Below, piece after piece: positions 9,623-16,573 of a stretch of DNA of 38,721 bases; within the stretch, counting starts at the first letter, position 1, and the number at the start of each line of letters is the position of its first letter. Source of the stretch: Candidatus Saccharimonadota bacterium (GTDB lineage Bacteria; Patescibacteriota; Saccharimonadia; Saccharimonadales; JAGQMS01); the NCBI GenBank assembly GCA_020428535.1, contig JAGQMS010000008.1, positions 1 to 38,721 on the forward strand, written 5' to 3'. Both the position numbers and the translations under genes were made by a program. The notes beneath the pieces are model-generated. The model was not told the origin of the DNA. It worked only from the letters and a program-made list of their open reading frames with translations, and made no database searches.

Positions 9623-10402
9623 TTAGTTAAGTAGGCAGTGACAGACTGCTTCAAATTGTTTAGATGGGTGGTGAATGACCGCGACTATTGCCTTTGTAGC
9701 TACTTCTAGCCGCCAAATGTCAGGGCTACCCGGAATGGTCGTCAATACTGAATTGTTTTTGTCTACAGTGATAATGTGGTTGTCCATTTTAGTGATTAGC
9801 GTAGAGGCTTCGTTTTTCATAAATCTTTCTAGTGTGCCGACTAAACTGGCGATGGGCATATTGAAATTTAAGGCCTCGCTGAATTTAGAAGTCTGTAGAA
9901 TCTTTTGAGCTTGCGAAAAACTCGCAACCACAAATGTATTTTGCCGTTTTAGGACAGTGCTGGGGTGTTGTAGATAGTAGTCCAGGGCATCTTTTGTTAT
10001 CGCGATTGGCAGGCTGAGGCTGAATAGTATTTCTTCAATCAACATTGCCGTCTCGCTATTTCTTCCAAAATCTCCAGCAAGCAGAATTCCATCTGCCCAT
10101 TGGGCATTCTGAAAAATTTGATCACGCGCTTCTTTTGAAAAACTTCCGCTACTAGTCGAGGGGCAAAATACAGCGTCGGTCCAAAGCGGGGCGAGCGTTC
10201 TTCTAAGTGAATCGGGTAACAGGATTCTGGTGTAGCCAATCCCCTGCTCTTTTGCCGTTTCGTCTGCTTTGGCCACAGCCGAAAAGCCATGTAAGTTTCC
10301 GCCAATAATTAGAAGTTTACCAGCTTGATCTTTTCTTTCTGGTTTCTCCCACGCTAAATCTTCAAAAAGCGGTGATTCTTTTGATTGCTTGAGTGCACTC
10401 AT
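9623..10402 (-). CDS. NAD(P)H-hydrate dehydratase-like ribokinase-fold protein
   Basis: About 259 residues from the ATG at 10400-10402. KLLIIGGNLHGFSAVAKA, DGILLAGDFGRNSET and LPIAITKDAL follow the order of motifs in the ADP/ATP-dependent (S)-NAD(P)H-hydrate dehydratases (NnrD/CARKD), which repair damaged NADHX. The usual GTGD signature near the C-terminus is replaced by GSPD (TTIPGSPDIWRLE) and the glycine-rich GPGLG is altered to AGDFG. It may therefore be inactive, or act on another substrate. The start is set by a TATAAT box 6 nt upstream; a TTG nine codons earlier is less likely because it overlaps that promoter. Confidence 0.6.
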   Translation of the reverse strand: MSALKQSKESPLFEDLAWEKPERKDQAGKLLIIGGNLHGFSAVAKADETAKEQGIGYTRILLPDSLRRTLAPLWTDAVFCPSTSSGSFSKEARDQIFQNAQWADGILLAGDFGRNSETAMLIEEILFSLSLPIAITKDALDYYLQHPSTVLKRQNTFVVASFSQAQKILQTSKFSEALNFNMPIASLVGTLERFMKNEASTLITKMDNHIITVDKNNSVLTTIPGSPDIWRLEVATKAIVAVIHHPSKQFEAVCHCLLN

Positions 10403-10454: not shown

Positions 10455-10815
10455 TAGTCCCCGGGGTTTAGCCTCCCCCGGGACGAGGAGTATGGGTCAG
10501 TAGCTGAGACACGCGCAGTCCGTTTTGACGATGACCCCATATCTGGTCAACATCACGCGAACCGCAGTATACGCACGTTTGAAAGCGCGTACAGATGTGT
10601 GTCGGGAGAAGTTGATAACAAGGCACCCCTCGGACACTTCCGTCGAGAATACTTCCCTTACGAACCGTAGATTGGCTCGTAGTTGTGTCACTTTCTCGAA
10701 GCCATCCGGCAACATAACCCTTAGACTGCGTGGGCGACTCCAAGTCAGCTTCGACAAGTCTAGCTACCCTTTCGATTTGCGATGTTTCCATCGACTAACC
10801 AGGGTGGTCAGTAGA
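10455..10815 (-). ncRNA. Structured non-coding RNA of about 360 nt, class not identified
   Basis: A GC-rich stretch between AT-rich flanks with many short stems and no credible protein. A promoter-like TATAGT/TATACT run (minus strand, about 10818-10828) precedes it. Strand evidence: CGATG-GAAA-CATCG (10793-10780) has a GNRA loop only on the minus strand, and the 8-bp stem TACGAGCC/GGTTCGTA (10681-10659) needs a G-U pair that would be a C-A mismatch on the plus strand. Near the 3' end a strong hairpin (10484-10457) pairs GTCCC and GGGG with CCCC and GGGAC. The length suits RNase P RNA or tmRNA, but I find neither the GAGGAAAGTCC and ACAGAA cores of the first nor the tRNA-like ends and tag of the second. 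It may also be a long leader of the next gene. Confidence 0.6.
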
Positions 10816-10845
10816 GTATACTATAACATTAATAGTGAATAATTG

Positions 10846-11640
10846 CTATACAAGTTCTATGCTCACCGGGCAGTGGTCGGAACCCATCACGTCGGCATGT
10901 ATTTCTGCCTTCTTGATCTTTGAGTCAAGTTTCGGAGACGCCAACCAATAATCGATCCGCCAGCCGATGTTTCTCTGCCTTGCGCCACCCCAAGCCGTCC
11001 ACCATGTGTAAGCCCCTTCTTCGCCAGGGTGTCTGGAGCGGAATGTATCTACATAACCAGCTTGCAAAATATCATCAAAACCTTTGCGCTCTTCTGCTGT
11101 AAAACCAGCGTTCTTAAGATTATCTTTTGGCCTAGCTAGGTCGATTTCTTGATGGGCAGCGTTGAAATCTCCACAGAAAAGCACCGGAGCGGTTTTCTCC
11201 AGTTCTTTAATGTGACCTAAAAAAGCAGCATCCCAGACATCGTGACGTAGGTGTAATCGTTCTAATGTGCGCTTGCTATTGGGCGTGTAGACCGTCACAA
11301 CCCAGAAATCTTCGAATCTAGCACTTAAAATCCTTCCCTCCTTTGTCGGGTCACCAAACTTATCGACAAAATCAAAAGATTTCTGAACTTCGTCCACAAA
11401 GCCGTTAATGATTTCTTTAGGCTTGGCCTTGGTGAATATCGCCGTTCCGGCATAGCCCGGTTTTTCGGCACTGTTCCAATATTCTTCATACTGTGGCAGA
11501 TCTACTGGCGATTGGTGAGGCATAGCCTTGGTTTCTTGCAGGCACAAAATATCGGGGTCATGATCTTCAATAAATTTTTGAAAAAGACCTTTGTTCCAAA
11601 CCGCCCTAATCCCATTCACATTCCACGAATATAGTTTCAT
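10846..11640 (-). CDS. xth: Exonuclease III family AP endonuclease
   Basis: 264 residues, the usual length. It cleaves DNA at abasic sites and has 3'-5' exonuclease and 3' repair activity with Mg2+. The visible signature motifs are SWNVNGIRAVW, CLQETKA (metal-binding Glu), VVTVYTPN, CGDFNAAH (catalytic Asp and Asn) and GSDHCPV (catalytic Asp-His). Every key residue is present. The ATG at 11638-11640 has TATACT 8 nt upstream and no Shine-Dalgarno sequence. The gene starts a minus-strand run ahead of the structured RNA. Confidence 0.95.
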   Translation of the reverse strand: MKLYSWNVNGIRAVWNKGLFQKFIEDHDPDILCLQETKAMPHQSPVDLPQYEEYWNSAEKPGYAGTAIFTKAKPKEIINGFVDEVQKSFDFVDKFGDPTKEGRILSARFEDFWVVTVYTPNSKRTLERLHLRHDVWDAAFLGHIKELEKTAPVLFCGDFNAAHQEIDLARPKDNLKNAGFTAEERKGFDDILQAGYVDTFRSRHPGEEGAYTWWTAWGGARQRNIGWRIDYWLASPKLDSKIKKAEIHADVMGSDHCPVSIELV

Positions 11641-13724: not shown

Positions 13725-14030
13725 ATGAGCACCGATGCGGCCTCCGACACCCAGTTGAATTTCAAGTTTCTGGGCCTGGCCCGTGATGTCCTCCCTCAGT
13801 TTTTGGCAATTGTTGGGTGTGAACGCCCAACCAGGTATTGGTTGGAAGGGGTTGAAGTAGAGAACCTCGGAGCTGTCACACTTCACTGGCCTGATGAAGT
13901 GATGATCAAGTTTGACCCACTTTCTGGGTCACATCGACTCACGGGCAGCGGCAAGACGACCCGTCGCGGGTACGAGTACAGGATCGTCAACATTGATGGT
14001 CTCGTGATGATCAATGTGATCAAGAACTGA
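13725..14030 (+). CDS. Small GC-rich hypothetical protein, 101 residues
   Basis: No family is recognised. There is a good Shine-Dalgarno sequence (AAGGAG, spacing 5) and a clear ATG. The product is soluble and probably a small alpha/beta protein: QLNFKFLGLARDVLPQFL, YWLEGVEVENLGAVTLHW, YEYRIVNIDGLVMINVIKN. GSGKTT occurs by chance in a context (RLTGSGKTTRRG) that is too short to be a P-loop NTPase. The base composition is clearly more GC-rich than the flanking genes (35 of 60 bases in the part I counted), and its expression signals differ from the leaderless neighbours, so recent acquisition is possible. It is followed by a strong hairpin. Confidence 0.7.
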   Translation: MSTDAASDTQLNFKFLGLARDVLPQFLAIVGCERPTRYWLEGVEVENLGAVTLHWPDEVMIKFDPLSGSHRLTGSGKTTRRGYEYRIVNIDGLVMINVIKN

Positions 14031-14487: not shown

Positions 14488-15447
14488 CTATGCTTTACTT
14501 CTCGAATCACTTACTAAACTCTTCACCGTCGCCCACAGTTCATGATCGCCACGAGTCGTTTTGCGCCAATACCACCATTCTCCACCCCATAAATCCATAT
14601 ATTTCATACCAGAATCTTTGGCAAATTGAACACATCTCTTCAGTTGATCACTATTCATAGAGAGTGCCTGTTCTTGGTCATCCATCTCCCAGTTTGCTTT
14701 TGGCCCCCAAGGCTCAGCTTGAAGTTCATGAATCAAAAGGTCTCGCCACCCAAATATACGAACCAAAATTCTTCGCAGTGCAAAATACCAAGGTTTGAAT
14801 TTCGTGTGGCTGTATCTTCCATTTTCATACTGCACCAAATACATCGTTGTACCGAATAAATCTGGTTTTGGTGCAAAAATAGGTAACCCAACGGTGTTGC
14901 CAAGGCTCATGATTATCGGCCTGTTTGGGTCGAGAGCTCTCAAGACACTAAACTCTTCTTTCAGCCTGCTCCGCGAGAAGTCATTGTTTTGGCCAAAACC
15001 TTTATTCCAAAATTCATTTTCAAGTTGCCAACTCTGAATACAATGATAATTTTTGTAGCGTTCGATAATTAAACGATGATAAGCCAAGTAAGCCGAACGA
15101 CGATCTTCGATTTCTAGTTCTAGCGCCCAAGCCGGAATATGCGTTTCGGGCCATCGCGGTTGTCGCATACCTATACATAATGTTGCCTCAGCGCCAGCTT
15201 TAGTAATAATTTCTAATTGGGAATCGAGCAGAGAAAAGTCGTAAACCCCCTGTTCTGGTTCGTGAAGATCCCAATATGACATAATCCGAAACCTCTGAAA
15301 CCCTGCATCGAGTAGACCATCTAGGCATGCTTGCCAGTCTAGGCTGTAGTCTTTACAAGTTTTAACCGAAAAACTAACACCTAATCTAATTTCGTTTCTG
15401 ATTTTAGAAACTTCTTGTTTGATTTCCTCATTTTTGGAGCTCGGCAC
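14488..15447 (-). CDS. Clan GH-A type glycoside hydrolase paralogue, cytoplasmic form
   Basis: About 319 residues from GTG (15445-15447), which has GGGAG 7 nt upstream. The frame extends further upstream but there it overlaps the preceding gene and has no homology to it. This is a TIM-barrel hydrolase: the acid/base Glu is in QSWQLENEFW and the nucleophile Glu in LIHELQAEPW, with RFRIMSYWDLHEPEQG and WGGEWWYWR as in the upstream gene. There is no signal peptide or membrane segment, unlike that paralogue. Start and upstream stop overlap by 20 bp, so the genes are coupled. The substrate is unknown; beta-linked glycans are likely for this clan. Confidence 0.8.
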   Translation of the reverse strand: MPSSKNEEIKQEVSKIRNEIRLGVSFSVKTCKDYSLDWQACLDGLLDAGFQRFRIMSYWDLHEPEQGVYDFSLLDSQLEIITKAGAEATLCIGMRQPRWPETHIPAWALELEIEDRRSAYLAYHRLIIERYKNYHCIQSWQLENEFWNKGFGQNNDFSRSRLKEEFSVLRALDPNRPIIMSLGNTVGLPIFAPKPDLFGTTMYLVQYENGRYSHTKFKPWYFALRRILVRIFGWRDLLIHELQAEPWGPKANWEMDDQEQALSMNSDQLKRCVQFAKDSGMKYMDLWGGEWWYWRKTTRGDHELWATVKSLVSDSRSKA

Positions 15448-16573
15448 GTACTGTCTCCCATGGCTTCGGGTCGTTGAAATGTGTTCGTCTCCAATACCAC
15501 CATTCTCCACCCCACGTGTAGATTGGGTCTGCACCAATTTTTCGGGCAAAATCAAAGTTCTTTTGGATCTGCTTAGTGTCCATCGAGCGGTCTTGTTCCT
15601 GAAGACTACAGTCAACTGTCCGCTTGGGGCACCAAGGTTCAACCTGAAGTTCATGAATATATACTGGCCGATTATGGATTAGCTCGATTAAGAATTTTCG
15701 GATTCTGTGATACCAAATTGGTGTAGGGTAAGTCAGGTAAAAATGTATTGGTGTCTTGTCGTTCCAAACAGTTCGATAAACTGAGAATCCAAAAGCGTCA
15801 GGTGTTGGAACTTTAACCGGGAAGCCATGTTGGTCACTCAAGTTCATCCAAAGTTCATGATTGGTGTCTAGTGATTTGACCAAGTCATATTCTTCGTGCA
15901 AACGATCGCGTGGTGCGGCACCTTTGCATGTCCCGAACCAGTTGTTGACAGCCTCATTCTCTAATTGCCATGAGCGCAGAGCTGGGTGATTCTTATATCT
16001 TTTTACGACGACAGTGATGTAATCGTATAGTGCTTTTCGCCATTGCGGAGTTTCTTCTGTCAAATTTTCCGCCCAAGTTGGCTCGTGACATTCTGGCCAC
16101 CTTGGTTGCCGAAGACCAATACTCAAAGTCACTCTAGCGCCACGCTTGGCAGCTTCGTCCATTTGCCAATCAAGAATAGAAAAATCATACTTCCCTTGCT
16201 CGGGCTCATGAAGATCCCAATAGCTCATCAAACGGAAGTTTCTGAATTTCAGATCATCAAGAAGAGCTGTGTAATTAGCTTGCCAGTCAACGCCAAGTTC
16301 TTGAGCGTATTTGTACGAAAAACTAACTCCATACTCAGGGTGTTGAAGTGGCCTCCAGGAACTTTCGACAATTGTATGCGTGGTGACTACCAAAACAATA
16401 ATTAACGCCCCAATTGAAACTCTCCGAACACCTTTCGGCCAAGAACGGAATTTTGCTTTCCAACCATCTAAAATTGCTAAGAATCTTTCAAAAGATCGCA
16501 ACAAAATATGTAGCGACTTTACCCTGTGAAGTTGAGGCGTTGACTCTTTTCGCCTGGAAGGCGTTTTTTTCAT
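15428..16573 (-). CDS. Membrane-anchored clan GH-A type glycoside hydrolase
   Basis: 381 residues. A basic N-terminus (KKTPSRRKES) and one membrane segment at about 52-70 place the TIM barrel outside the cell. Motifs: NFRLMSYWDLHEPEQGKYDF, SWQLENE with probable acid/base Glu207, and IHELQVEPW with probable nucleophile Glu308. WGGEWWYWRR near the end is shared with the downstream paralogue. It likely trims or digests a surface or host glycan. The exact CAZy family cannot be given from sequence alone. A TAACAT box lies 7 nt before the ATG. The gene is divergent from an alpha/beta hydrolase gene with 56 bp between starts. Confidence 0.82.
   Translation of the reverse strand: MKKTPSRRKESTPQLHRVKSLHILLRSFERFLAILDGWKAKFRSWPKGVRRVSIGALIIVLVVTTHTIVESSWRPLQHPEYGVSFSYKYAQELGVDWQANYTALLDDLKFRNFRLMSYWDLHEPEQGKYDFSILDWQMDEAAKRGARVTLSIGLRQPRWPECHEPTWAENLTEETPQWRKALYDYITVVVKRYKNHPALRSWQLENEAVNNWFGTCKGAAPRDRLHEEYDLVKSLDTNHELWMNLSDQHGFPVKVPTPDAFGFSVYRTVWNDKTPIHFYLTYPTPIWYHRIRKFLIELIHNRPVYIHELQVEPWCPKRTVDCSLQEQDRSMDTKQIQKNFDFARKIGADPIYTWGGEWWYWRRTHFNDPKPWETVRAELQK

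Follow-up and report, generated by a model that had tools for sequence, protein, structure and literature searches.

A candidate structured non-coding RNA between xth and a dehydratase-like gene in a Saccharibacteria genome

Introduction

The closest described counterparts of the block analysed here are orphan candidate structured non-coding RNAs (ncRNAs) in bacterial intergenic regions, of the kind surveyed in PMC8632094 and PMC2864571. The block resembles these candidates in its length, G+C richness and strong fold, as well as in having neither a coding signal nor a known family, but they rest on several compared homologues, whereas the block is a single sequence. Two housekeeping RNAs also invite comparison. 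RNase P RNA (RF00010) is of similar size and is likewise multi-branched, but its model does not match the block, while tmRNA (RF00023 and the permuted forms) is alike in size, and smpB is nearby, but tmRNA has a tRNA-like domain, a CCA end and a T-arm, all three of which are missing from the block.

Genomic context

The block lies within a stretch of 38,721 nucleotides from a Candidatus Saccharimonadota bacterium, the whole of which was analysed and is referred to as the window. It occupies most of a 443-nt gap, among the two longest in the window, between xth and a dehydratase-like gene, with both genes and the folding strand of the block on the minus strand. The G+C content is 53% in 10455-10815 versus 43% in the window, in agreement with its description as a G+C-rich block in the sequence-only reading that preceded this analysis. 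The features of the locus are as follows.

10846 to 11640, minus strand: xth, exodeoxyribonuclease III (TIGR00633, E 6e-86), the upstream neighbour of the block
10815 to 10820, minus strand: TATACT, a -10-like box in the sequence, 6-7 nt ahead of the likely 5' end
10455 to 10815, minus strand: candidate structured ncRNA, with its 5' end at about 10808-10810 and its 3' end at about 10457 if it ends after the G+C hairpin
9623 to 10402, minus strand: NAD(P)H-hydrate dehydratase-like gene (weak YjeF-C; TIGR00196, E 4.7e-5, below the cut-off)

A relative of the dehydratase-like gene, for which the ATG at 10402 is probably the real start, is present in 143 of the 149 genomes of the order. At three loci of relatives (L063, L089 and L104) this gene adjoins xth, the gap being no more than about 12 nt, compared with which about 430 nt are extra at the junction in the present genome; elsewhere among the relatives, the two are separated by at least one coding gene. 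No relative examined shows significant similarity to the block, which is a single copy in its own assembly, and the relatives searched include no other member of the family to which its source genome belongs. The terminal inverted repeats of the block are at chance level (equalled in 18% of shuffles), as are its terminal direct repeats, and the presence of CTACTGACC near both ends, remarked upon in the earlier reading, needs no explanation beyond chance (26% of shuffles contain a 9-mer direct repeat). With repeats not above chance and no further copies in the assembly, the block does not bear the marks of a mobile-element remnant.

Folding and predicted structure

On the minus strand the block folds with -136.5 kcal/mol (z -3.65), a value matched by just 1 of 1000 dinucleotide shuffles, versus an ordinary fold for the plus strand (z -1.03; 152 of 1000 shuffles as good). 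Further fold runs on the block agree with these results. The stability thus exceeds that given by composition on one strand only, as is looked for in a structured ncRNA, and the strand-specific folding that had been proposed is confirmed. In a fold scan over both strands of the entire window, 200-nt windows from the block rank 4th and 12th of 772, where they keep company with a tRNA and terminator-like hairpins. A one-in-a-thousand fold for a block that was picked by eye is nevertheless suggestive, and no proof of an RNA gene.

The predicted minus-strand structure consists of the following parts, from 5' to 3'.

10794 to 10812, minus strand: 5' hairpin ACUGACCA-CCC-UGGUUAGU, 8 bp (pair probability 0.58)
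10780 to 10793, minus strand: hairpin CGAUG-GAAA-CAUCG with a GNRA-type loop (0.97)
10500 to 10767, minus strand: long-range helix 10767-10758 / 10510-10500, 10 bp, closing a multi-branched core (0.43)
10694 to 10756, minus strand: branched arm 10756-10747 / 10703-10694 with inner hairpins (about 0.55)
10659 to 10681, minus strand: hairpin UACGAGCC / GGUUCGUA, 8 bp (0.97)
10592 to 10642, minus strand: long irregular hairpin of three stacked helices, 4+5+7 bp (0.65-0.84)
10570 to 10591, minus strand: hairpin UACGCGC / GUGCGUA, 7 bp (0.93)
10514 to 10566, minus strand: interrupted hairpin, 19 bp, the most stable arm (0.95-0.98)
10457 to 10484, minus strand: 3' G+C-rich hairpin GUCCCGGGGG / CCCCGGGGAC, 9 bp, without a U tract (0.73)

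Support is strongest for a set of local hairpins (pair probability at least 0.9), among them the GNRA-loop stem recognised in the sequence-only reading. The strong 3' hairpin that it also described (GUCCC..GGGAC) is found at the minus-strand 3' end. The long-range helix modelled as closing the core is plausible, not certain.

Promoter and transcript ends

Of the promoter-like start described previously, the TATACT -10 box is present, but no clear -35 accompanies it and the box does not appear in the list from the consensus scan. Both xth and smpB carry the same hexamer 7-8 nt ahead of their start codons. No obvious terminator separates xth from the block. The 3' hairpin does not qualify as an intrinsic terminator, since neither strand supplies a U tract. 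Downstream, a perfect TATAAT at 10413-10408 (minus strand) precedes the ATG of the dehydratase-like gene by 6 nt, with no Shine-Dalgarno sequence nearby, from which it follows that the gene is probably leaderless, an arrangement that would exclude the block from its message.

Such an arrangement is not confined to this gene. A TATAAT-like -10 hexamer is situated 4-10 nt before the start codon in 13 of the 42 genes of the window, versus 3 at a control offset (examples among the 42 gene starts are 10402, 11640, 13616 and 16630), which suggests that leaderless transcription is widespread in the source Saccharibacteria genome. Both xth and the dehydratase-like gene belong to the 13, and each is thus probably transcribed from a start of its own. 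With a TATAAT of its own for the dehydratase-like gene and a TATACT of its own for the block, a stand-alone, trans-acting RNA is likelier than a leader.

Homologue searches and comparison with housekeeping RNAs

In strict and permissive searches of Rfam 15, no family matches the block at the gathering score or at E<=10, and the sole match, at 17.7 bits, is unrelated and lies outside the block. The search with all Rfam covariance models that had been proposed on the basis of the sequence has been run and finds no known RNA family; none of the riboswitch or leader families matches. Used as a blastn query, the block has no match in 60 genomes of the same order, none in 392 such genomes at E<=1e-3 and no homologue in phages and plasmids, whereas the RNase P RNA of the same genome, as a control query, finds 51 of the 60 other genomes. 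Covariance models of two subdomains of the block match only themselves among 198 genomes, with no homologue in the 197 others (each model was built from a single sequence and is limited in its reach), and GTDB contigs approached via the neighbouring proteins hold no homologue. An exact-pattern search of viral contigs gave one match (L184), which fails the covariance model and was rejected. The block is an orphan, one sequence in the collections searched.

RNase P RNA was also rejected as an identity for the block, which RF00010 does not match at E<=10, the genome's own copy being located on another contig (G000:C2:6256-6613, 187 bits). Enlarged forms, of about 440-507 nt, are seen for several of the order's RNase P RNAs. 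As for tmRNA, neither a cmscan with RF00023 at E<=10 nor an nhmmer search with an HMM from ten relatives gives a match in the block, no T-arm (TTCRANY) is found in it on either strand, and the end GGAC..CAGCTCCACCA, common to 9 of the 10 relatives, is absent throughout the source assembly, the block included. On the plus strand, GCTTCGAC (10748-10755) resembles the conserved 5' segment of tmRNA, a likeness put down to chance, as it comes without an acceptor strand, a T-arm or an HMM match. No complete tmRNA was detected in the assembly, which yields only tRNA-like matches of at most 30 bits; the assembly is 87% complete, and the tmRNA most simply lies in the missing 13%.

The proximity of smpB, raised in the sequence-only reading, is real (2.3 kb) but carries little information. 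The genes for smpB, xth and the dehydratase-like protein are close neighbours in G039 too, where the standard tmRNA is on a different contig, so that the proximity is a matter of gene order. With RNase P RNA on another contig, no tmRNA ends or T-arm, and no homologue in the genomes of the order searched, the suggestion of a very divergent housekeeping RNA is not sustained, and the block shows that size and smpB proximity are insufficient to identify such an RNA. The G039 tmRNA (L177 1226-1783, G039:C5) is standard but 558 nt long through long insertions, and a strict-filter search missed it at full length. Relatives have a cluster rnpB-rplT-infC-comM-tmRNA-smpB; unlike them, the source genome has, beside comM, a 1-kb A+T-rich stretch without tmRNA or smpB (L074 9316-10381, G000:C2).

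Alternative explanations

A very divergent or permuted tmRNA would account for the failure to detect one in the assembly and for the position of smpB, the tmRNA and smpB being absent here from the cluster that holds them in relatives, but the missing ends and T-arm, the silence of both the ten-relative HMM and the Rfam tmRNA models, the G039 arrangement and the incomplete assembly together make this the least probable of the readings considered, and scarcely credible. A short protein gene, either the 107-aa frame 10791-10468 (minus strand) or the frames that overlap it, is very improbable as well. The longest open stretch, of 112 codons, is equalled in only 4% of base shuffles, but the codon scores of the three overlapping open frames (-0.16 to -0.20, with -0.16 for the 107-aa frame) fall below those of every one of 25 window genes (+0.04 to +0.28), in keeping with the earlier judgement that composition alone keeps these frames open. 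Moreover, no Pfam, NCBIfam, PHROGs or PADLOC match to the frames passes 0.01, the matches to the frame 10468-10791 are confined to 3 of 392 genomes, do not exceed 17.9 bits and include no credible relative, phages and plasmids yield none, and the ATG of this frame sits inside a hairpin without a preceding Shine-Dalgarno sequence. Neither the codon usage of the genome nor a conserved frame thus speaks for translation, and the block is probably not a protein gene.

It is improbable, to a lesser degree, that the block acts in cis on mRNA stability or expression, either as a 3' UTR belonging to xth or as a long regulatory leader for the dehydratase-like gene; the shared strand and the want of an obvious terminator after xth would suit such a role, but the probably leaderless dehydratase-like gene and the lack of any riboswitch or leader family match tell against it. 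The main rival to an ncRNA gene is a non-functional insert, that is, G+C-richer DNA of foreign or rearranged origin, or what is left of a decayed mobile element, which folds well by chance. Its raised G+C content, the absence of homologues from every collection searched and the adjacency of xth and the dehydratase-like gene in relatives are all consistent with this explanation, which is unlikely rather than remote, but strand-specific folding is unexpected for random DNA, the terminal repeats are at chance level, and the -10 box is placed right ahead of the folded part.

A candidate lineage-specific structured RNA

The explanation preferred here, its prospects put at about even because the strand-specific fold tips the balance against an inert insert, is that the block encodes a lineage-specific structured ncRNA of about 330-360 nt on the minus strand. 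The fold statistics, the absent coding signal and the clean insertion between normally adjacent genes speak for a structured, non-coding RNA on that strand, and with it for the earlier claim of a structured RNA of about 360 nt; the earlier interpretation as a whole is partly supported. Against the gene are the single sequence, the missing -35 and U tract, and a pair probability of only 0.43 for the closing helix. In genomes as small and gene-dense as those of Saccharibacteria, it would be costly to keep a non-coding insert of 440 nt that folds strongly on one strand.

Under the ncRNA-gene explanation, the transcript would begin near 10808, about 6-7 nt past the TATACT box, and the RNA would fold into two 5' hairpins followed by a multi-branched core closed by the long-range helix, ending at or near the G+C hairpin (10457). 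A leaderless mRNA for the dehydratase-like gene would then start from that gene's own TATAAT, and the RNA of the block would act in trans as a stand-alone ncRNA rather than as a leader of that gene. Only tentatively, and with more doubt than confidence, might it represent a new class, namely a large structured stand-alone RNA with a specific cellular role that occurs in only one deep Saccharibacteria family, itself barely sampled. Confirmation would make it a large new ncRNA of an undersampled branch; at present it is a one-sequence candidate.

Two further observations concern the rest of the window. A 101-aa frame at 13725-14030 (plus strand), opposite smpB, has no Pfam, PHROGs or PADLOC match. 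At 14488-16573, two tandem GH42-like glycosidase paralogues overlap in different frames (14488-15654 and 15428-16573); either the downstream start is misplaced, as is probable, or the genes truly overlap.
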